Origin: Aquaspirillum serpens DSM 68
Lineage (GTDB): Bacteria > Pseudomonadota > Gammaproteobacteria > Burkholderiales > Aquaspirillaceae
NCBI RefSeq assembly: GCF_000420525.1
Contig: NZ_ATVC01000002.1
Location: forward strand, 1 to 64,000
Length of the DNA stretch: 64,000 nt
Direction: 5' to 3'
Part shown: positions 5,090-64,000 of the stretch, piece by piece
Numbering within the stretch: the first letter of the stretch is position 1
Layout of the letters: every line of letters begins with the position of its first letter
The notes under the pieces: model-generated
Told to the model about the DNA's origin: nothing
The model's database searches: none
Seen by the model: only the letters and a program-made list of their open reading frames with translations
Translations under genes and position numbers: made by a program

Positions 5090-6220
5090 ATGAAGGCTCG
5101 TTTTGTCACTCTATTGCTGTTAGCAGCAGGTGGTTTAGCTGCTTGCAGCAGCAATACCGAACCCCTTGCCGGCAAAAAGCTAGACTACCAATCAGCGGAC
5201 CCTAACCGCAAAGGCGCACTGGAAGTCCCTCCCGACCTCACCACGCCCGAGCTGAAAAATACCTATGCCCTACCCAAAGGCACAGTCAGCGCCAATGCCG
5301 CACAACAAGCAGCATTAAACCAACAACAAACCGAGGCCAAAGGCAAACAAGGGGTGTTGGTCAGTGTGCCTAATGTGAAGTTAGAGCGTGATGGTTCTCA
5401 ACGTTGGCTGCGGGTTAGCCAAACCCCCGAGGCGCTGTGGCCAATTTTGGAAGAGTTTTGGCAAGACAACGGTTTTGTGATTAAAACCAACGAGCCTAAA
5501 TTGGGTTTGATGGAAACCGACTGGGCGGAAAACCGCGCCAAACTGCCACAAGATGGTGTGCGTTTCTTACTGTCTAAAGTCGGTTTGGACGGTCTGTATT
5601 CGACTCCCGAACGCGATAAATTCCGTGTCCGAATCGAGCGCGGCGCACAAGGTACCGAGGTTTACTTCACTCATCGCGGTTTAGTCGAGGTCTACTCGGA
5701 TGAAAGCAAGGGCCAAACCATGTGGCAAGCCCGTGCTGCCGATCCAGAGCTAGAAGCGGAATTACTTGGTCGCTTTATGTTGCGCTTGGGGCTGAATGAA
5801 GAAAAAGCCCGTGAAGAAATCAAAAACAGCCAAACTGCCCCCGCAACCACTCGTGCCCGTGTTGAAGGCAACAGTATTGTCGTAAACGATGCGTTTGATC
5901 GTGCATGGCGCCGCAGTGGTTTGGCTTTAGATCGCGCCGGTTTGGTAGTGGTTGACCGCAATCGTCAGGCCGGTGTGTACTATGTCCGGCCAGCACAAAC
6001 TGAGTTGGATAAGAAAGACGACGGTGGATTCTGGTCTAGCCTCGCCTTCTGGCGTAGTAAGGGCAGTGATACCGCGACTAAGCAGCCGGCCTTACAAGTG
6101 AAATTAAGCGGTACCGCAGAAAATCAAACCCGCATTCAATTGTTAGACCCACAAGGCAACCCCTTGACCGAGCAACAAAGCAGTTCTATTTTGCGCGCGC
6201 TGCAACAACAGTTGAACTAA
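5090..6220 (+). CDS. bamC: Outer-membrane assembly lipoprotein BamC
   Basis: A 376-residue lipoprotein with signal MKARFVTLLLLAAGG and lipobox LAAC. An unstructured N-terminal segment follows (LDYQSADPNRKGALEVPPDL), the part that in E. coli binds BamD, and then two helix-grip domains. It is a non-essential partner of the BAM complex that inserts beta-barrel proteins. AAGGA sits just before the ATG. It is downstream of dapA and ends before a likely terminator. The family is variable in sequence, but the N-terminal motif and gene order make the call firm. Confidence 0.92.
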   Translation: MKARFVTLLLLAAGGLAACSSNTEPLAGKKLDYQSADPNRKGALEVPPDLTTPELKNTYALPKGTVSANAAQQAALNQQQTEAKGKQGVLVSVPNVKLERDGSQRWLRVSQTPEALWPILEEFWQDNGFVIKTNEPKLGLMETDWAENRAKLPQDGVRFLLSKVGLDGLYSTPERDKFRVRIERGAQGTEVYFTHRGLVEVYSDESKGQTMWQARAADPELEAELLGRFMLRLGLNEEKAREEIKNSQTAPATTRARVEGNSIVVNDAFDRAWRRSGLALDRAGLVVVDRNRQAGVYYVRPAQTELDKKDDGGFWSSLAFWRSKGSDTATKQPALQVKLSGTAENQTRIQLLDPQGNPLTEQQSSSILRALQQQLN

Positions 6221-10125: not shown

Positions 10126-10950
10126 TCAAACATAACGCCCGACAGTGATTCGCTCTACCCCAGCTAAATCACGCTCGGTCTCCACCTCACAAAAACCACG
10201 CTGTTGGAGTGCTTTTCGCACTGCCTCGCCTTGGTCAAAACCGTGCTCCAACCCCAGCCATCCCCCCGAGACCAAATACAGTGGTGCCGTTTCAATAATC
10301 GTTGTTAATGCCGACAATCCATCTTGACCATCGGTTAAAGCTTGCTGTGGTTCAAAACGTAAATCGCCCTGCTGTAAGTGTTGATCTTGTGCTGCGATGT
10401 AGGGTGGATTTGAAACGATCACATCCCACAGTGGTGCAGGACACGCAGCAAGCGCTTGCCACCATGAGCCCTGATAAAACGTTACCTGAGCACCTAATCT
10501 ATTGGCATTTTCTTCGGCCACAGCTAACGCAGCAGCAGAAACATCAGTAGCCGTAACATGCGAAGCCGGTTGTTCTAATGCCAACGTCACTGAAATAACA
10601 CCGCTGCCGGTTCCTAAATCGAGATAACGAATTGGACGATGGGCAATTGGACGGGTTAACGCCCACTCAACCAGTAGTTCGGTTTCTGGTCGTGGAATTA
10701 AGGTAGCAGGAGAAACGGCAAATTCACGGCCATAAAACTCGCGCCAGCCAAGTAAATAAGCAATTGGCTCGCCCTGTTGCCGCCGCTGGCATAGCGTCAA
10801 GAAGCTTTCTGCTTGCGGCGTTGGGATAACACGCTCTGGATAGGTAGTTTGTTGGACGCGCGAATAGCCAGTAACCTGCTCTAACAACAACCGCGCTTCT
10901 AAGCGCGGCAGTTGACTGACGTGTAATAACTCAGCAATGGTAGATGACAT
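10126..10950 (-). CDS. prmC: Release-factor glutamine N5-methyltransferase
   Basis: About 274 residues. PrmC methylates the GGQ glutamine of release factors 1 and 2 with S-adenosylmethionine. The helical N-terminal domain contains GEPIAYLLGWREFYG and the loop RPETELLVEW. The methyltransferase domain has DLGTGSGVI for cofactor binding and the NPPY motif. ATG 10950 is preferred because GAGGATAGGG precedes it. The start follows the mgtE stop by only 8 bases on the same strand, so prmC is probably the second gene of an mgtE-prmC transcript. In many bacteria prmC follows prfA instead, so this context is unusual. Confidence 0.95.
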   Translation of the reverse strand: MSSTIAELLHVSQLPRLEARLLLEQVTGYSRVQQTTYPERVIPTPQAESFLTLCQRRQQGEPIAYLLGWREFYGREFAVSPATLIPRPETELLVEWALTRPIAHRPIRYLDLGTGSGVISVTLALEQPASHVTATDVSAAALAVAEENANRLGAQVTFYQGSWWQALAACPAPLWDVIVSNPPYIAAQDQHLQQGDLRFEPQQALTDGQDGLSALTTIIETAPLYLVSGGWLGLEHGFDQGEAVRKALQQRGFCEVETERDLAGVERITVGRYV

Positions 10951-10958
10951 CCCTATCC

Positions 10959-12395
10959 TCACAGTAAGAACAGCGTGGCAAGGCCCAAGAAAATAAAGAA
11001 ACCACCGGAATCGGTACACGCGGTAATCATCACCGAAGACCCCATTGCCGGATCACGCCCAAAACGCACCATCAGTAGTGGCACTACCACACCCATGGTC
11101 GCGGCCAACATTAAATTTAAGGTCATCGCAGCGGTCATCACCACACCAAGCGAAGGGCTGCCATACAAAATAAAGGCAATCAGACCAATCAAACCGCCCC
11201 ACACCACCCCATTCACCATGGCAACGCCAATTTCTTTACGCCACAACCGCGAAATATTATTCGGCTGTAACTGGCCCAAAGCTAAGGCACGCACAATCAT
11301 GGTGATGGTTTGATTACCAGAATTACCGCCAATGCCCGCCACAATCGGCATCAAGGCCGCCAGTGCCACTAATTTTTCAATGGCATCTTCAAACACGCCA
11401 ATCACGCGACTAGCAACAAAGGCCGTAATCAGATTAATCGCCAACCATGCCCAACGGTTTTGCACCGAGCGAATCACCGGCGCAAAAAGATCTTCCTCTT
11501 CTTTCAAACCGGCCATGTTTAACACTTCGGTTTCCGATTCTTCGCGGATGTAATCCACCATCGCTTCAATCGTGACCCGTGCAATCAGTTTCCCTTCGTG
11601 GGTTACCACCGGTGCGGATACGAGGTCATAACGCTCAAACGCTTGTGCGGCCTCGCCCAAATCTTCATCAGGACGAAAGGTCACCACATCACGCGCCATT
11701 ACGTCTTCGACTAGTTCATCTGGGTCGTTGACCAACAACACATTGATCGGTAACACCCCTTGCAGGATTTCGTCTTCATCGACCACAAAAATTTTGTCAG
11801 CGTGGGTCGGTAATTCTTCAAAGCGGCGTAAATAGCGCAATACCACTTCTAGTTTCACATCAGCGCGGATTTTGACCACATCAAAATCCATCACACTACC
11901 GACTTGCTCTTCGGAATGCGACAGCGCCGATTGCAACTGCTCGCGCTCTTTGCTGTCTAAACTTCCGATCACTTCATGAACAACATGTTGTGGTAAATCG
12001 GGCGCAAGATCGGCTAATTCGTCAGCATCCAAGCTTTCTGCAGCCGCCACCAATTCTTCGCGATCCATCGACTGAATCAACGATTCGCGGACAGCATCGG
12101 ATACTTCCAGCAAAATCTCGCCATCACGCTCCGATTTCACCAAATCCCACACCAATAAGCGTTCTTCTAATGGCAAGGCTTCGAGGATATAGGCGACGTC
12201 AGCCGGATGAAGTTGATCAAGACGTTTTTGTAATTCAGCGATATTTTGTCGATGCACCAAATCTTCGACTAAGTCGTGTTTGGGCATATCTTGGCGATGA
12301 ATCAGTTCTTCGACAATTTTATGGCGGTGCAGCAACGCCATGACCTGTTGCAGGCTGGCGTGCAGACCTTCTGGGTTGTGACGGTTATCGGACAT
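10959..12395 (-). CDS. mgtE: Magnesium transporter MgtE
   Basis: About 478 residues in the order expected for MgtE: an N-terminal superhelical domain (LHPADVAYILEALP), two CBS domains (the VMARDVVTFRPDEDL and VTHEGKLIARVT regions), a plug helix and a C-terminal membrane domain with five helices containing GIGGNSGNQTITMIVRALA, the selectivity-filter region. In the known family the cytoplasmic domain senses magnesium and closes the channel. ATG 12395 has GAGG upstream. The leader contains two overlapping perfect inverted repeats that could switch ribosome access (see the separate entry). prmC follows directly. Confidence 0.95.
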   Translation of the reverse strand: MSDNRHNPEGLHASLQQVMALLHRHKIVEELIHRQDMPKHDLVEDLVHRQNIAELQKRLDQLHPADVAYILEALPLEERLLVWDLVKSERDGEILLEVSDAVRESLIQSMDREELVAAAESLDADELADLAPDLPQHVVHEVIGSLDSKEREQLQSALSHSEEQVGSVMDFDVVKIRADVKLEVVLRYLRRFEELPTHADKIFVVDEDEILQGVLPINVLLVNDPDELVEDVMARDVVTFRPDEDLGEAAQAFERYDLVSAPVVTHEGKLIARVTIEAMVDYIREESETEVLNMAGLKEEEDLFAPVIRSVQNRWAWLAINLITAFVASRVIGVFEDAIEKLVALAALMPIVAGIGGNSGNQTITMIVRALALGQLQPNNISRLWRKEIGVAMVNGVVWGGLIGLIAFILYGSPSLGVVMTAAMTLNLMLAATMGVVVPLLMVRFGRDPAMGSSVMITACTDSGGFFIFLGLATLFLL

Positions 12396-12397
12396 AG

Positions 12398-12448
12398 GTG
12401 CATCCTCATTGCCTGCTGCGGTGCAGGCAATAAGCAATGCACCGCAGC
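12398..12448 (-). promoter_or_regulatory. mgtE leader with two mutually exclusive hairpins
   Basis: On the minus strand the first hairpin pairs 12438-12448 with 12415-12425 (11 perfect base pairs, 12-nt loop). The second pairs 12424-12431 with 12408-12415 (8 perfect base pairs, 8-nt loop). They share bases and cannot coexist. The Shine-Dalgarno GAGG lies immediately 3' of the second stem. TGCACC next to the start codon could also pair with GGTGCA in the first arm. This arrangement suits a leader switch, but no known magnesium riboswitch class was recognised. Confidence 0.5.
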
Positions 12449-12577
12449 ATCAGGCGGGTAATAGAATCAAATAAGTATCAAGTTGAGATCGACTGGGGAG
12501 GTCCATTGTCGTGGTCGGGTATTGCCCGAGCATTGAGAACAGGTTGCAGATTTTAGCGAGGTATGGCGAGAAAAGCA

Positions 12578-13270
12578 TCAAGGAATGTCCGCATAAGTCA
12601 TGCGCCGCACAATAATGGCGCTTTTCCTTAATAAACGGCGATCATTGCGATGGCTGTCGTAATAGCGCGGATTGGGCAACATTGCCGCCAATTTGGCCGC
12701 CTGTGGCTTAGCCAATTTGGCTGCCGATGTTCGATAATAATGGCGTGCCGCCGCCTCGGCCCCAAACACACCGTCCCCCCATTCAACGACATTGAGATAA
12801 ATCTCAAAAATCCGTTGCTTGTCTAACACCGCCTCAAGCATCACCGTAATCACCGCCTCTTGCGCTTTCCGCCACGGTGTACGTTGAGAAGAGAGAAACA
12901 GATTTTTTGCTAATTGTTGACTGATGGTTGAACCACCGGCCACGATACGGCCTTTTTGCAGATTTTTTTCCCACGCATCTTGAATACCTTCCCAATCAAA
13001 ACCGTCGTGATTGAGAAATTTGGCATCTTCACTCGCCACAATCGCACGTTTCAGATGTGAGGAAATCTGGGGATAATCCACCCACTGATAGCGAAGCTCG
13101 GCCTCTGGGTTGTCTTGCTGCAAGCGAGCTTGTTGTTCAGACATAAACGAGGTCATCGCCGGCGGATACCAGCGCCAATACACAATATGACCAAAAATCC
13201 ACAGCTGATATAAAAAACAAATGGCCAGCAAAATGCCGACCACTTGTGCAATGCGCTTACGCAAGCTCAA
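12578..13270 (-). CDS. mtgA: Monofunctional peptidoglycan glycosyltransferase
   Basis: A 230-residue protein with one N-terminal membrane helix (about residues 10-30) and a single GT51 domain that polymerises lipid II into glycan strands. The catalytic glutamate E81 lies in ASEDAKFLNHDGFD. GGSTISQQLAKN and a second Glu in EIYLNVVEWGDGVFG are also present. The start is TTG at 13270, supported by GAGGTGC upstream. It overlaps the aroE stop as TTGA, so translation is probably coupled. aroE-mtgA pairing is also seen in other Gram-negative bacteria. Confidence 0.95.
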   Translation of the reverse strand: MSLRKRIAQVVGILLAICFLYQLWIFGHIVYWRWYPPAMTSFMSEQQARLQQDNPEAELRYQWVDYPQISSHLKRAIVASEDAKFLNHDGFDWEGIQDAWEKNLQKGRIVAGGSTISQQLAKNLFLSSQRTPWRKAQEAVITVMLEAVLDKQRIFEIYLNVVEWGDGVFGAEAAARHYYRTSAAKLAKPQAAKLAAMLPNPRYYDSHRNDRRLLRKSAIIVRRMTYADIP

Positions 13271-14088
13271 GAAAGCACCTCACGCAACAACCCCATCACG
13301 GTACGGGTTTCTGGCATCACGCCACGCCAAATCAAAAAGGCTTCAGCAGCTTGTTCCACCAACATCCCCAAACCATCAGCCAACATCGCCGCATTTTCTT
13401 GCTGACCACGACGCAAGAAAGGCGTTAAACCTGACGAGTACATCATATCGTAGGCCAAGCTGCCCTCGGCAAAGATGCCATTCGGTATGGGAGGAAGCTC
13501 ATCATTCAAGCTAGAAGAGGTGCCGTTGATAATGATGTCAAACTGCTGACCATTGAGAGCCTCATAACCGCAGGCTTCAATCTTGCCTTGGGCAGCAAAC
13601 GCTGTTGCTAGGTCTTGTGCCTTGCTGACTGTACGGTTGACCACGGTCAGACTAGCAGGATTTTGTTCTAACAAAGGCAACAACACGCCACGTACCGCGC
13701 CACCAGCCCCCAACACCAACACCCGCTTACCGGCAATGGCAAAATCTAGGTTTTGCACAATATCACGCACCAACCCGATACCATCGGTGTTGTCGCCAAA
13801 AATTTCACCATCTTTGAACGTTAAAGTATTCACCGCATCTGCCAAGCGCGCACGTTCGGTCAATTGCGTCGCCATCTGCCGTGCTTCAAGCTTAAACGGA
13901 ATCGTAATATTGACCCCTTTACCGCCTTCGCTGACAAATTGCTGTACGGTGGTTGCAAAGCCGTCTAGAGGCGCAAGTAAACGCTCGTAAGTCAGTTTTT
14001 GACTGGTTTGACGGGCAAACTCAGCATGAATCAGGGGCGATTGACTGTGGGAAATCGGATTACCCACAACAGCATAACGATCGGTCAT
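13267..14088 (-). CDS. aroE: Shikimate dehydrogenase
   Basis: A 273-residue NADPH-dependent enzyme of the shikimate pathway, reducing 3-dehydroshikimate. Substrate-binding SHSQSP is at residues 13-18, the catalytic lysine K66 is in NITIPFK, and DNTDGIG and the nucleotide-binding LGAGGAVRG follow. Length is normal for AroE. The stop overlaps the TTG start of mtgA by four bases. The Shine-Dalgarno sequence is modest (AGGAAAAC). Confidence 0.96.
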   Translation of the reverse strand: MTDRYAVVGNPISHSQSPLIHAEFARQTSQKLTYERLLAPLDGFATTVQQFVSEGGKGVNITIPFKLEARQMATQLTERARLADAVNTLTFKDGEIFGDNTDGIGLVRDIVQNLDFAIAGKRVLVLGAGGAVRGVLLPLLEQNPASLTVVNRTVSKAQDLATAFAAQGKIEACGYEALNGQQFDIIINGTSSSLNDELPPIPNGIFAEGSLAYDMMYSSGLTPFLRRGQQENAAMLADGLGMLVEQAAEAFLIWRGVMPETRTVMGLLREVLS

Positions 14089-14124
14089 AGGAGAGGTTTT
14101 CCTAAAAAAGCGATGAGAAAATAA

Positions 14125-14577
14125 TTAGCCCTGCTGCCACGGCAGACCGCGAACTTTCCAGCCATTCACCGTTCCGCGATGCGCTTGTGCATCACAATCG
14201 CCTTCAAAGCCTTCTAGGATATTAAACGCGGTGTAACCCTCTGCCGCAGCAAGACAAGCGGTGTCGTGCGAACGTGCACCAGAACGGCACAAAAATAACA
14301 CTTTTTTCTGTGGTGGTACCTGCGCTTTTAAGCTGCTGATGAAATTCGGATTGAGCACCATGCCCGGAAACGACTTGTATTCAATATGAACAGCATGTGG
14401 GACTTGGCCGACAAATTGCCATTCCGCTGCCGAGCGCACATCCACTAACACCGCCTGTGCGTCAGGTTCAGCTAATAAAGCCGCTGCCTCGGTCGGTAAT
14501 AATAAGCCAGCGTAAGGTAAGCCCTGTTGTTGGGCACGTTGGGCGGCAGTTTGCAACAGCGTATCAAGCTCTGTCAT
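14125..14577 (-). CDS. Cytoplasmic rhodanese-domain protein
   Basis: A 150-residue single rhodanese domain without a signal peptide. The active-site loop is CRSGARSHDTA, with Cys present. VLVDVRSAAEWQFVG and NILEGFEGDCD...NGWKVRGLPW match the 'rhodanese-like' family that ends in a conserved GW...GLPW segment. That same ending appears in the exported rhodanese at 7006-7566. A role in sulfur relay or cyanide detoxification cannot be settled. GAGG precedes the ATG. It lies upstream of and co-directional with aroE-mtgA, and divergent from glnA. Confidence 0.85.
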   Translation of the reverse strand: MTELDTLLQTAAQRAQQQGLPYAGLLLPTEAAALLAEPDAQAVLVDVRSAAEWQFVGQVPHAVHIEYKSFPGMVLNPNFISSLKAQVPPQKKVLFLCRSGARSHDTACLAAAEGYTAFNILEGFEGDCDAQAHRGTVNGWKVRGLPWQQG

Positions 14578-14745
14578 GTCATTCCTCTTTCAATAGTCTT
14601 ATTGTCGCAAGCGTAGCAAGCGAGGCAACATCGCTTTGCAACACAGCAGGCTTACAATTTTGGCTGCGGCAGATTATGGCAAAGAAGCGAAATCACCGCC
14701 AATGCTTTCACTGCCCGCCCCATTTTGTGACCTAAAATCGGCAAA

Positions 14746-14762
14746 AGCACACTATTGGTGCA
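14746..14762 (+). promoter_or_regulatory. NtrC-type box 1 upstream of glnA
   Basis: AGCACACTATTGGTGCA matches the dyad TGCAC-N7-GTGCA recognised by NtrC, with the right half complete. Its centre is about 160 bp upstream of the predicted sigma-54 start site. Confidence 0.6.
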
Positions 14763-14775
14763 ATTTATTTTGCAT

Positions 14776-14792
14776 TGCACCAAAAATAAGCA
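14776..14792 (+). promoter_or_regulatory. NtrC-type box 2 upstream of glnA
   Basis: TGCACCAAAAATAAGCA has a perfect left half and a weaker right half. Its centre is 30 bp from box 1, about three helical turns, which is the spacing expected for a cooperative NtrC enhancer. Confidence 0.5.
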
Positions 14793-14887
14793 AAAACAGC
14801 CACCCCAGAAACAGTAACGGCATGGCACAATAGCGTTTCGCGGGCAAAATAGGCTTTTGCTAAGCGATTTTAAGCGGTTTGTTTAGA

Positions 14888-14903
14888 TGGCACGCTTCCT
14901 GCT
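14888..14903 (+). promoter_or_regulatory. Sigma-54 (-24/-12) promoter of glnA
   Basis: TGGCACG at 14888-14894 and CTGC at 14899-14902 place GG and GC exactly ten bases apart, as sigma-54 polymerase requires. The ATG of glnA is about 85 bp downstream, leaving a leader of roughly 70 nt. Confidence 0.8.
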
Positions 14904-14985
14904 TTAAGAAAACGCGCTAGTGGCAGTAACAAGACCCACCCACAGAAATAAACCGAATCTGCATCTGAATTTTCAGGAGAACACC

Positions 14986-16404
14986 ATGGCGGTTGCTGAT
15001 GTTTTGAAGATGATCGAAGAAAACGACGTGAAATTCGTTGACCTGCGTTTTACTGATACGCGTGGCAAAGAACAGCACGTTACCATCCCTGCTCACGTCC
15101 TCACTGAAGACGCTGAAGAATGGTTCGAACACGGTCACGCGTTTGACGGTTCTTCGATTGCAGGCTGGAAAGGGATCCAAGCTTCCGACATGCTGCTGAT
15201 GGCCGACCCAGCAACGGCCAATATCGACCCGTTCTTTGACGAACCCACATTGATCATGACATGTGATGTGGTCGATCCTGCTGATGGCAAAGGCTACGAC
15301 CGTTGCCCACGTTCGATTGCCAAACGCGCTGAAGCCTATCTGAAAGCCTCTGGCTTGGGCGATACCGCTTTCTTTGGCCCAGAACCTGAATTCTTTATTT
15401 TCGACAGCGTGACATGGGGCGTGGATATGTCCGGCTGTCACCTCAAGATCGAAGCACAAGAAGCCGCATGGTCTTCTAGCGAGAAATACGAAGGCGGCAA
15501 CACCGGCCACCGTCCTCGCGTGAAAGGCGGCTACTTCCCAGTGCCTCCAGTCGATTCTTCGCAAGACTTGCGTTCTGCGATGGTGTTGACTTTGGAAGAA
15601 ATGGGCGTGCCAGTTGAAGTGCACCATCACGAAGTGGCCACCGCAGGTCAGAACGAAATTGGTACCAAATTCAGCACCTTAACTCAACGTGCTGACTGGA
15701 CCCAAATTCTGAAATATGTGGTGCACAACGTAGCACACAGCTATGGCAAAACAGCAACCTTTATGCCTAAGCCTATCGTTGGCGACAACGGCTCGGGTAT
15801 GCACGTTCACCAATCGATTTGGAAAGACGGCAAAAACCTGTTTGCTGGCGACCAATACGCAGGCCTGTCTGAAACTGCGCTGTACTACATCGGCGGTATC
15901 ATCAAGCACGCTAAAGCATTGAACGCCATCACCAACCCAGGCACCAACTCCTACAAGCGTTTAGTGCCACACTACGAAGCACCGGTGAAACTGGCCTACT
16001 CGGCGAAAAACCGTTCGGCTTCCATCCGTATCCCTCACGTGGCCAGCGAAAAAGCCCGCCGTATCGAGGCACGTTTCCCTGATCCACTGGCCAACCCATA
16101 CATGTGCTTCGCTGCGCTGTTGATGGCTGGTTTGGATGGTATCCAGAACAAGATTCACCCAGGCGATCCAGCAGACAAAAACCTGTACGATCTGCCACCA
16201 GAAGAAGACAAACTGATCCCAACCGTATGTGCTTCGTTGGAAGAAGCACTGGATGCGTTGGACAAAGACCGCGAGTTCTTGACTCGTGGTGGTGTGTTCT
16301 CGAACGAATTCATTGACGCTTACATCGAATTGAAGATGCAAGAAGTCAACCTGAACCGTATGACTACCACACCTGTTGAATTTGATCTGTACTACTCGCT
16401 GTAA
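14986..16404 (+). CDS. glnA: Glutamine synthetase, type I
   Basis: A 472-residue GSI-beta enzyme making glutamine from glutamate, ammonia and ATP. The N-terminal latch FDGSSIAGW, the metal and substrate motifs [16 protein letters not shown] and NGSGMHVH, and the adenylylation site Y401 in NLYDLPPEE are present, so control by GlnE is expected. ATG 14986 has AGGAG upstream; the longer frame from 14920 adds 22 unrelated residues. Expression probably depends on the sigma-54 promoter and NtrC boxes described here. glnL and glnG follow after a terminator, as in E. coli. Confidence 0.98.
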
Positions 16405-59755: not shown

Positions 59756-61039
59756 ATGCAACTTCTTTTAGAAAAATTTGTTGCTGGCACTTGGCAAGCG
59801 GCTGCAAATCTCACCATCGAAACACCACAACACGGTATTTCATCTGCTTGTATTGTGGAGTATCTACCAGAATACGCTCTCGCTTATCTGGATGCGAAAG
59901 GTGAGCCTGCGTTATCTGCCAACCTACCAGTTTCATTTCACCATCAACGCCTTCCCCACTGGCCACCATTTTTACTCGATATCTTACCGAGTGGTTTTGG
60001 TCGCGAGCTACTGGTTGTGCAGCAAAAACTACCTCAACCAGATGGTCCACATAACGACTCCACTCTTTTAGCACTTGGTGCCAGCAATCCTGTCGGCAAT
60101 CTACGAGTTGCACAAGCGCATAATTGGCTGCTCATGCAACTACCAGAAACCAATCAGGGATGGCAGTTAGAAGACATGTCACGCCATGATGCTGATTTTA
60201 TTGAGTATGCACAAACACATGGCACACTTGTGGCGGGAACAAGCACACAAGGACAAGCCGCCAAGCTGTGGATCACTCAAAAAGGTGATGCGCTATATTA
60301 TGCAGATATTCTTGTGCCAGACGATGAAGCAATAGCACACTATCTCATTAAAATACCGCGCAATGAACGTGATGCCAATTTACTGAAACATGAACTTTAC
60401 TGGCTGCAATTGGCTAAAAAAGCAGGCCTCAATGTTCATGGCGAGCCCTTTATGGCTGGGGGGTTACTATTTATTCCACGTTTCGACCGCGTCTTAAAAA
60501 ATCATGGTGTGCATCGTCGTGCGGTTGAAAGTGTTTTTAGTTTATTGGGTATTGCTGCTCATGCGCAGTCACTGAGATACGAAGATATTATTGAGACATG
60601 GATAAAACATGCAGACATCTCATGGCTTGGGATAGATCTGCTCGAATATCTACAAAGAGATATTTTAGGCTATTGCCTACGTGTAGAAGACAACCATGGC
60701 CGTAACACCGCATTTTTTCTTGGTCAGCAGGGTATTCAGCTCACACCCTTATTTGATTTTTCTCCGATGTTCCTTGCCGATGATCCTCCAGCACGCGCTA
60801 CATTATGGCGACAATTTCCTCTAGGAAATCACATCCAGTGGCCATGCTTATTTCATCGCTGGTTACCGGATATTATTGGTATAGAAAACACAGAGGCATT
60901 ACGTAGCCAGTTGGGACAATGGCAGCCCCGATTAGCAGAAACCTATGCCGAATTTATGCAATTAGATTTAGATCCACGCACATCTATTTGCCATCAACGT
61001 TTCCAAACTGTTTTAAAGGTCTTTGATGCGTTACGCTAA
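59756..61039 (+). CDS. HipA-family kinase toxin
   Basis: A 427-residue HipA-fold Ser/Thr kinase. The N-subdomain has PPFLLDILPSGFGRELL and STLLALGASNPVGNLRVA, nearer to the YjjJ-type HipA group than to E. coli HipA. GTSTQGQAAKLWI is the position of the Gly-rich loop, FIPRFDR follows, the catalytic loop reads VEDNHGRN (D312), and LTPLFDFSP is the metal-binding Asp. Family members phosphorylate glutamyl-tRNA synthetase or other tRNA ligases. The target here is unknown. The antitoxin-like gene lies downstream and overlaps by 14 bp, the reverse of classical hipBA order. Confidence 0.88.
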   Translation: MQLLLEKFVAGTWQAAANLTIETPQHGISSACIVEYLPEYALAYLDAKGEPALSANLPVSFHHQRLPHWPPFLLDILPSGFGRELLVVQQKLPQPDGPHNDSTLLALGASNPVGNLRVAQAHNWLLMQLPETNQGWQLEDMSRHDADFIEYAQTHGTLVAGTSTQGQAAKLWITQKGDALYYADILVPDDEAIAHYLIKIPRNERDANLLKHELYWLQLAKKAGLNVHGEPFMAGGLLFIPRFDRVLKNHGVHRRAVESVFSLLGIAAHAQSLRYEDIIETWIKHADISWLGIDLLEYLQRDILGYCLRVEDNHGRNTAFFLGQQGIQLTPLFDFSPMFLADDPPARATLWRQFPLGNHIQWPCLFHRWLPDIIGIENTEALRSQLGQWQPRLAETYAEFMQLDLDPRTSICHQRFQTVLKVFDALR

Positions 61040-61397
61040 AAAATCGCCAGAAGCACTACAGATACTTCGACAAACGTTAGTGGCTCGTCTTGCACAATCA
61101 CAACCGACGGTTGCTGAAGCAGCACGCTGGATTAGAGAATCGTTAGGTCTCAATCAGCGCGAGTTTGCTAAGTTAGTCGGGTTGAGCACCCCGCAAATTG
61201 CCCGACTTGAACGAGGAGAAGCGAATCCGACACTGGAAACCCTGATGGCGATCGGGAAACCTTATGGGCTGTATGTCGGTTTTATCCATCCAACGATGTG
61301 TGTCCAATCTACTGACCACACAGCATCACCGATACAAGCGACTCCCCAGCGTCGAATCCTGCCCCGACTTAATTTCAATAAAACAACTCATGATTAA
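61026..61397 (+). CDS. XRE/HipB-like antitoxin
   Basis: A 123-residue protein with a Cro/C1-type helix-turn-helix (LGLNQREFAKLVGLSTPQIA and RLERGEANPTLETL, about residues 40-80) and a basic, Thr/Pro-rich tail. AAAGG precedes ATG 61026, inside the end of the kinase gene. It probably binds the palindromes at 59694-59748 and restrains the HipA-like protein. The 3' end overlaps rarD by four bases on the opposite strand. Confidence 0.88.
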   Translation: MRYAKKSPEALQILRQTLVARLAQSQPTVAEAARWIRESLGLNQREFAKLVGLSTPQIARLERGEANPTLETLMAIGKPYGLYVGFIHPTMCVQSTDHTASPIQATPQRRILPRLNFNKTTHD

Positions 61398-62290
61398 GTC
61401 CACCCATACCGCCGCCGCCACAGTCCTTCGGCGCTAGACACCAGCAACGCAGCCCAAATCAAAACAAAGCCAGTTAGCCGACCTGCATCAAGCACTTCAC
61501 CAAACACCAAGACACCGAGGGTGAATTGAATACTTGGCGAAAGGTATTGCAACAAGCCCAATGTGGCTAAATCGAGCTGTCGGGCGGCGGCGGCAAACAG
61601 CAATAACGGCACCGCCGTTACCACACCCGCCCCCACCAACAAGCTATTGACCTGCCACGACACCGCCGCACCGAACATCGCCGTGCCTTGCCATTCTTGC
61701 CACAATAAATAGCCCAAGGCCGGCAACACAATCAGCCATGTTTCTAATGCCAATCCTTCTAACGAGCCAAGTCGAGCGACTTTGCGCAACAAACCATACG
61801 CGCCAAAACTAGCAGCAATCGCCAATGCAATCCACGGCGGCACCCCCGCTTGCCAGCCCATCCACGCCACACCAATCATCGCCAATAACACCGCCATCTG
61901 TTGCGGGCGGCGCAGGCGTTCTTTCAACACCACCGCGCCCAATGCCACATTAAGCAACGGTGTAATGAAATAGCCCAGACTGGCCTCCACGACATGGCCG
62001 GCGTTCACCGCCCAAATATAAATCAGCCAATTGGTCGCTAATAAAACAGAGGAAAAAGTAAAGGCACGCAGGGTTTTACGGTCGAGCTGGGTCAACCACG
62101 CCCATTGCTTACGCCAACCTAAAATAAGGAATAGGAATAAAGCCGACCAAATAATGCGGTGAGCAAGGATTTCCAGTGCAGGCACCGAGGCAAGCGGTTT
62201 CCAATAGAGTGGAAACAATCCCCAAATAACGTAGGCCAACAATGCCAACGTCACTCCATTTTCTTTCACGTTTTGCGTCAGATTAGGCAT
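61394..62290 (-). CDS. rarD: EamA-family transporter RarD
   Basis: A 298-residue inner-membrane protein with ten predicted helices in two EamA repeats. LLAYVIWGLFPLYWKPL near the N-terminus and LATNWLIYIWAVNAGHVVEA and SLGYFITPLLNVALGAV further on are RarD signatures. E. coli rarD was named for chloramphenicol sensitivity, and the natural substrate is unknown. It is convergent with the HipB-like gene. Confidence 0.93.
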   Translation of the reverse strand: MPNLTQNVKENGVTLALLAYVIWGLFPLYWKPLASVPALEILAHRIIWSALFLFLILGWRKQWAWLTQLDRKTLRAFTFSSVLLATNWLIYIWAVNAGHVVEASLGYFITPLLNVALGAVVLKERLRRPQQMAVLLAMIGVAWMGWQAGVPPWIALAIAASFGAYGLLRKVARLGSLEGLALETWLIVLPALGYLLWQEWQGTAMFGAAVSWQVNSLLVGAGVVTAVPLLLFAAAARQLDLATLGLLQYLSPSIQFTLGVLVFGEVLDAGRLTGFVLIWAALLVSSAEGLWRRRYGWT

Positions 62291-62523
62291 AACGTTCTAC
62301 TGGTTAAACAAAGAAAGCCATCTTACGCCTAAACTGTGGTTTAGGATATGCAGCACAACAAAAAAAGACAAATGACTAAAAAATGCAAAAATATTTAACA
62401 AAATCAAAAACATAAATATAAGAAAATTTCTAACATCTATCAAAATTCAATAAAAAGAATGTTCATGGTATGATTTTGTTTATGTCATATCAGATAATCG
62501 CTTTGAAAAGTTAAGACGGAAAA
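62291..62523. other. AT-rich region upstream of the P-loop ATPase
   Basis: This 233-bp gap is markedly richer in A and T than its surroundings and has no gene. It probably holds promoters for rarD and the ATPase. It may mark the boundary of an acquired segment. Confidence 0.55.
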
Positions 62524-64000
62524 ATGAAAAGATACATTCCCCTCAACGCCAGCGAAAGTGCTGTGTTGCCTGATGCAGATACCCTGTTGCCACGCGATGA
62601 AGTGTACGAGCCGCTAGCGCGGATGATCGAAGAAGCTGTAAAAAAGGCAGAGGCTGCCAAAGGCCAATCGCTGAACCAGCTACGTGAGCACAATGCCATC
62701 TCGATTGATGGCGCACGAGGGACGGGCAAAACCGCCGTATTGGTCAATCTGAAAAGTTATCTGAAAGAGCGAGATGTACTAAAAGATGTGCATTTGTTCG
62801 ATCCTATCGACCCCACCTTGTTGGAAGAGGGTGAATCATTGTTTTTGCACATCATCGTCGCCGCTGTGCTGCACGACAAAGATGTTAAAGAAGCGCAAAG
62901 AAAAGAGCCGAACAAGGCCCGCAACTTGAATCAGACGCTGGAGAAACTCGCCCAGTCGTTGGAATCGATAGAGACACAAAAAAACTATCATGGCATGGAT
63001 AAAATACGAGCCATGTATAGCAACAAGCATCTGGCGGATTGCGTACAGGATTTTTTTCGCGAAGTGCTGAGTCTGCTAGGTAAAAAGCTGTTGATTTTAC
63101 CGATTGATGATGTCGATACCTCGCTGAACCGTGCCTTTGAAAATTTGGAAATCGTGCGCCGTTATTTGGCCACACCTTATGTTCTTCCCATCGTCAGTGG
63201 CGACCGTGAACTGTATAACGAAGTCACTTGGCGCGACTTTCATGGCCGCCTGACCAAAGACTCCAAGCATCTTTCTGAAGCCGCTTATGAAACAGCCGTA
63301 GAGTTGGCCGCAGAGTATCAGCGCAAAATCCTGCCATTCCCGCGACGTTTGACCATGCCGGAAGTCAGTCAGTATTGGCAGGAAAAAGATATTTATCTGG
63401 GTGATGGAGAGAAAAAAGAAGTCATGCCACTGCGTAACTTTATCGCTTGGCTAGAGATTTTTTTGAGTGGGCCGGTCAATGGACTTGAAGATAGTCAGTT
63501 ACCGTTGCCGATTCCTTCAGTGCGAGCACTAACCCAGCTCTTAAATCGGTGTCAAGATTTAATCCCTGCGCTGCCAAAACGGGTTAAAGAGGCAAGTTCG
63601 GCTTTACAGGTAAAACGGGCATGGCAAATGCCCGATGTACCAGAAGAAGTAATGGAAGCATTTGAAAAAGCATATCAAGAGCAACACAAGGAAGTAAAAC
63701 GTGATTACAACCCCGCCTATGCCACGTTTGCGACTGAATTGGCTAAACAGCCAATGGATGTACCAAATGATTGGATTCAGCTTGACCGCCAACAGTGGAC
63801 TGCCAGTCTAAAAAATCACTTTCAGTTTGAGACAGAAGCAGGGCCAGTCTTTCTGGTTTTACAAGCACAGGAATATTGGCAGCAATGGCGTAATACACCT
63901 GCCGGAGAACATAGAGGCAGCATATTTGATACTGCCCTATTCCAGCCCCTCTGGCATAGTTCCCCAAACTATCAGCGTTTTGAAAAAAGGCATGACTTAT
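62524..64000 (+). CDS. Large P-loop ATPase, truncated by the window edge; possible defence protein
   Basis: An open frame from ATG 62524 runs 492 codons to the right edge with no stop. Walker A is GARGTGKT (residues 63-70) and Walker B is LLILPIDDVDTS (D195, D196, D198). LFDPIDPTLLEEGESLFLHI and LPIVSGDRELYNEVTWRDFH follow the style of STAND/ORC-like AAA+ ATPases. The region after ~residue 250 is unassigned. The domain style resembles ATPases of anti-phage systems such as RADAR (RdrA) or Avs-like proteins, but I cannot confirm membership. The leader is AT-rich, unlike the rest of the window, which may point to transfer. Confidence 0.8.
   Translation, partial: MKRYIPLNASESAVLPDADTLLPRDEVYEPLARMIEEAVKKAEAAKGQSLNQLREHNAISIDGARGTGKTAVLVNLKSYLKERDVLKDVHLFDPIDPTLLEEGESLFLHIIVAAVLHDKDVKEAQRKEPNKARNLNQTLEKLAQSLESIETQKNYHGMDKIRAMYSNKHLADCVQDFFREVLSLLGKKLLILPIDDVDTSLNRAFENLEIVRRYLATPYVLPIVSGDRELYNEVTWRDFHGRLTKDSKHLSEAAYETAVELAAEYQRKILPFPRRLTMPEVSQYWQEKDIYLGDGEKKEVMPLRNFIAWLEIFLSGPVNGLEDSQLPLPIPSVRALTQLLNRCQDLIPALPKRVKEASSALQVKRAWQMPDVPEEVMEAFEKAYQEQHKEVKRDYNPAYATFATELAKQPMDVPNDWIQLDRQQWTASLKNHFQFETEAGPVFLVLQAQEYWQQWRNTPAGEHRGSIFDTALFQPLWHSSPNYQRFEKRHDL

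Follow-up and report, generated by a model that had tools for sequence, protein, structure and literature searches.

What system does the P-loop ATPase gene cut off by the right edge of this sequence belong to? The window, the 64,000-nucleotide stretch analyzed here, covers positions 1-64000 of a 93,055-base contig in a 2.6 Mb Aquaspirillum serpens genome, and the contig numbering continues that of the window. A first-pass annotation had proposed from the fragment that the ATPase may open a defence system, that any partner gene lies beyond the window, and that an adenosine-deaminase-like partner would indicate RADAR. The sequence to the right bears this out. The same contig carries a full rdrA-rdrB-rdrD RADAR operon, in which rdrB, the deaminase gene, and then rdrD follow the ATPase gene rdrA (Table 1).

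Table 1. Positions of the RADAR operon, its neighbours and the third genes of related Undibacterium operons
Feature	Position	Strand	Remarks
HipA_C/HTH (HipA-like) pair	59756-61397		upstream of rarD; profile match
rarD	61394-62290	minus	TIGR00688 above cut-off; between HipA-like pair and rdrA
AT-rich rdrA leader	62300-62523 (about 230 bases)	plus	between rarD and rdrA
rdrA, 5' part	62524-64000	plus	492 codons; ATG start; no stop before window end
rdrA, whole	62524-64959	plus	811 aa; continues on the same contig beyond the window
35-codon ORF	65064-65171		in the 211-base rdrA-rdrB gap; ends TAATG, its stop overlapping the rdrB start
rdrB	65171-67891	plus	906 aa
rdrD	67902-68693	plus	263 aa; likely start 67902, 11 bases past the rdrB stop and preceded by GAGGAG
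Solute-binding protein gene	3' of operon	minus	beside fabI
fabI, LysR-type regulator, malate synthase	downstream of solute-binding protein gene		named from sequence
SLATT gene, U. rugosum (L064)	10878-11624		NF033633/NF033634
SLATT gene, U. crateris (L070)	10901-11647		NF033633/NF033634
SLATT gene, U. curvum (L071)	10901-11617		NF033633/NF033634

All three proteins score above curated family cut-offs. NCBIfam equivalog models give 842.8 bits for RdrA (cut-off 600, with the model covered end to end, 1-742 of 742), 1050 bits for RdrB (cut-off 800) and 310 bits for RdrD (NF041745, cut-off 230), and PADLOC gives 1093 bits for RdrA and 1536 bits for RdrB. The truncated part of RdrA inside the window reaches an E value of 1.9e-245 with PADLOC and 612 bits with NCBIfam (cut-off 600) on its own, so the open reading frame is not a product of chance. 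A Protein Data Bank sequence search returned matches only to RdrA and RdrB of E. coli RADAR.

The motifs from which the ATPase was recognized are all present: Walker A GARGTGKT (residues 63-70), Walker B IDDVDTS (residues 194-200, with IDD at 194-196) and SGDRELYNEVTWRDFHGRL, which starts at residue 225. Specifically, G68, K69 and T70 of Walker A, D195 and D196 of Walker B and the sensor-1 residue D227 are counterparts of residues required in E. coli. R334, invariant in 26 RdrA sequences, is perhaps sensor 2. In RdrB, H542, E545 and H574 align with the E. coli zinc ligands and catalytic Glu (H498, E501 and H530, which are among the residues reported as needed for RADAR function; PMC9994260), and the motif itself places the HxH pair at H170/H172.

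An AlphaFold2 model of RdrA, built from 26 relatives (pLDDT 84, pTM 0.84), has the predicted AAA+ core, four-helix crown (about residues 107-185) and all-helical C-terminal lobe of the RdrA fold. The seven top rows of the comparison with solved structures were all RdrA (Z 19.7-24.1 over 480-607 residues). These were E. coli chains, with Z 21-24 and rmsd 5.0-5.8 over 538-607 residues, and Streptococcus suis RdrA, with Z 19.7 and rmsd 6.3 over 480 residues. The next family was BREX BrxC, with Z 12.2 and rmsd 3.6 over 252 residues. Because all three genes exceed curated cut-offs, the RdrA fold matches and the catalytic motifs are intact, we assign the locus to accessory-bearing RADAR (rdrABD), a member of an already known system type. 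Gene content, family membership, intact catalytic residues and the RdrA fold are direct observations on this operon, and we are confident that a complete chromosomal RADAR anti-phage operon is the best explanation overall.

The ATPase had also been described as of STAND/AAA+ type, with an Avs-like or new system to be expected if the C-terminus held a nuclease or effector domain. The structure supports the AAA+ half of that description. For STAND, Pfam gives a marginal KAP_NTPase match alone (20.6 bits, cut-off 20). The P-loop with its weak KAP- and AAA_16-like matches, and the weak matches of PifA and other defence models, speak for an Avs-like or other STAND ATPase. However, Pfam finds no nuclease or effector domain in the full 811 aa beyond the marginal KAP/AAA matches, two curated libraries and the fold identify RdrA, and RdrB comes directly after it. 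The downstream sequence thus already refutes an Avs-like system, to which we give almost no chance.

The third gene makes this RADAR one with a less common accessory. RADAR subtypes associated with Csx27 and SLATT are described in a commentary on the original discovery paper (PMC7699616). The Aquaspirillum RdrD, encoded after rdrB, has at least three hydrophobic stretches and matches no SLATT model, NCBIfam SLATT_1 and SLATT_2 included; its structure model is poor (pLDDT 61). It is a candidate membrane accessory, for which a role as a membrane-linked auxiliary effector or anchor is likeliest. The same rdrA-rdrB-rdrD order, with an NCBIfam-positive RdrD, occurs in Silvania hatchlandensis (L055) and Pluralibacter gergoviae (L050). 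Their RdrB is 56-57% and their RdrD 30% identical to the Aquaspirillum proteins, their RdrA has a C-terminal tail, and their genes nearly touch or overlap.

The Aquaspirillum RdrA lacks that tail, which spans 60-110 aa in its closest relatives, and ends right after a conserved HPL motif. The gap between rdrA and rdrB is 211 bases long and AT-rich, and relatives have almost none. Most relatives combine a tail with near-touching genes, and a degenerate operon can be imagined in which a stop or deletion removed the rdrA tail, the gap is its remnant and the system no longer works. We consider this improbable. The gap resembles the relatives' tails no more than shuffled sequence does and contains no homologous reading frame, so its reading as a tail remnant is not supported. 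Two other RdrA proteins (L064 and L067) are equally tail-less with rdrB intact, all three Aquaspirillum genes are open with their motifs kept, and the NCBIfam RdrA model is matched over its whole length. The extreme C-terminal tail, which these three RdrA proteins lack, is another unit that varies. In the solved E. coli RdrA, the alignment reached only residue 861 of 947. The 35-codon ORF in the gap, for which no relative was found, may be either a chance frame or a translational coupler.

The feature of wider value is a pattern of exchange in the C-terminal half of RdrA. We compared RdrA along its length with proteins from three operons with similar RdrB: Undibacterium squillarum (L054), Enterovibrio sp. 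(L048) and Chromobacterium aquaticum (L049). Identity is 81-83% over residues 1-340 and 73-78% for RdrB, but just 34-38% over residues 360-800. In the C part these three are no closer than the outgroups L050, L051 and L055 (37-39%). A change-point scan places the break near residue 340, the start of the variable C-terminal lobe (window position about 63545), with a likelihood ratio of 72-79 versus at most 32 in block shuffles. Together with L032, from genome G238, the three operons are the closest in RdrB (73-78%) and in the N-terminal part of RdrA (81-82%); RdrD was not found in any of the four. L032 differs from the others in sharing the Aquaspirillum type of C half (59% identical).

Trees of the two parts conflict. 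The C half joins Aquaspirillum RdrA and L032 at 100/100, and supports both this pair and an L048+L049+L054 group at 99-100%. With the RdrA N-terminal part and RdrB joined, in a smaller set, the pair is rejected (AU p 0.003) and so is the group of three (AU p 0.004); the tested clades were picked after the first trees had been inspected, so these p-values are optimistic. In a larger tree the alternatives were not rejected (p 0.115 and 0.218).

In three Undibacterium species, U. rugosum (L064), U. crateris (L070) and U. curvum (L071), RADAR occupies one and the same chromosomal site: the flanking sequence on either side aligns by blastn at about 87-93%, and the neighbouring genes are shared. Within the trio, identity reaches 94-95% for RdrB but only 28-32% for the C halves of RdrA. 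An alignment of the U. crateris and U. curvum loci runs mostly at 92-100% nucleotide identity as far as about base 5930 and is down to about 45% by 6110, the fall from about 90% taking place within about 100 bases; identity is back to at least 88% by about 8120, just within rdrB. In U. rugosum most of rdrA is replaced, including much of the ATPase part (N part 62-63%). The third gene of these operons, unlike the Aquaspirillum rdrD, encodes a true SLATT protein, above the NF033633/NF033634 cut-off. At the U. crateris site, about 3.5 kb that separate the SLATT gene from the next gene common to the trio (11635-15123), missing there in the two sister species, hold a 962-aa ORF that is possibly another defence gene.

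These patterns suggest that the RdrA C half, from about residue 340, is a cassette that was probably swapped by recombination while the ATPase half and RdrB were kept. An N/C contrast could also arise without module exchange, if the C-terminal lobe were less constrained and evolved faster; control pairs, too, show somewhat greater variability in the C half (88/87/72% for RdrB, N and C in L050-L055). In AU tests on the C half, a single clade of the five close relatives is not rejected (p 0.115-0.134), and fast evolution could therefore account for some of the divergence. Yet no control pair collapses: the other two stand at 92/94/85% and 71/85/79%, so that identity drops only from 94 to 85%, 87 to 72% and 85 to 79% from N to C, versus values of 28-38% here. 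The tree conflict and the abrupt nucleotide boundaries between U. crateris and U. curvum also stand against it, and we regard fast evolution as the sole cause as unlikely. In the open literature searched, no report of RdrA domain exchange was found, an absence that is weak evidence.

What such a swap would mean depends on how RADAR works. In the characterized systems, RdrA rings dock via the crown on an RdrB dodecamer, and ATP and dATP are deaminated to ITP and dITP during infection (PMC9994260). The same study proposes, but does not prove, that the RdrA C-terminal domain is the sensor, and states that what RADAR senses is unknown. RdrA-RdrB assembly, substrate and phage defence are here carried over from the literature. 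By analogy with E. coli and S. suis, the Aquaspirillum RADAR would most likely act in the same way. An AAA+ ring of RdrA would dock through its helical crown on the RdrB deaminase dodecamer, and the phage signal would probably be read by the C-terminal helical lobe. RdrB would then convert ATP and dATP to ITP and dITP, which would poison the nucleotide pool and stop the phage.

The likeness to E. coli P0304799.3 RADAR (PDB 8fnt, 8fnw; PMC9994260) extends to tandem rdrA-rdrB, the ADA-type zinc site in RdrB, and an AAA+ RdrA with a crown insertion and all-alpha C-terminal lobe (model fit Z about 22). The two differ in RdrA, where the structural alignment has about 14-16% identity and the E. coli protein is longer (947 aa versus 811 here), and in that the E. 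coli operon was characterized with two proteins and no RdrD. Exchange of the C half, as read from the alignments, fits the published idea of this lobe as the phage sensor. Aquaspirillum RdrA and the three Undibacterium species may well exemplify one killing machine with interchangeable phage sensors. Pairs like U. crateris and U. curvum, in which RdrB and the ATPase part of RdrA are nearly identical but the C halves look unrelated, amount to natural domain-swap experiments that make the sensor proposal directly testable.

Returning to the genomic setting, the leader of rdrA is AT-rich, as had been noted. It holds no plus-strand sigma-70-like matches, and promoter-like matches are fewer than in shuffles. 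The first-pass annotation had also placed the gene after a HipA/HipB-like pair in an accessory island. The pair exists, but rarD intervenes between it and rdrA. The island itself was not borne out: the flanks are rarD and the solute-binding protein gene beside fabI, and no integrase, tRNA or long repeats were seen near the operon, where no mobile element is visible. The solute-binding protein-fabI pair is kept in two other genomes of the family (G002 and G005), and sister RADAR loci also lie mostly amid ordinary genes. An empty-site comparison found that the rarD and solute-binding protein genes are not adjacent in relatives, so the insertion site is not definable. The HipA-like gene was absent from all six other genomes checked, and the pair may represent a toxin-antitoxin acquisition distinct from RADAR.

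A single-sequence RdrA scan of genome contigs gave no match; an RdrB alignment search succeeded instead and identified 27 related loci in named genomes. RADAR is rare in the order: 8 of 399 genomes match the RdrB model, 3 of them above the cut-off. The operon gives the family that includes Laribacter a further RADAR; a Laribacter sp. assembly (G004) from this family also has a RADAR contig (JAGPIM010000176.1). The nearest RdrB relatives are in Undibacterium, Enterovibrio, Chromobacterium and G238, from which we infer that the operon is transferred among distant hosts. The phage records and viral contigs searched yielded no RdrB relative, and plasmid records hold seven distant ones. A 322,681-base Salmonella enterica plasmid (CP101356.1), for example, encodes at 172465-174090 a relative that the record labels a hypothetical protein (31% identity across 65% of the query).

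Among the related loci, the rdrA frame of Zoogloea dura (L058, 2613-5434) consists of two overlapping ORFs of 832 and 156 codons, reflecting either a frameshift or a sequencing error. One Undibacterium squillarum contig (NZ_BMYU01000001.1) carries two different RADAR operons, L054 and L067. Beside the Pluralibacter RADAR, at L050 8056-11968, two ORFs are reminiscent of Gabija, one of 716 aa that begins like an OLD ATPase and one of 589 aa that resembles a helicase.
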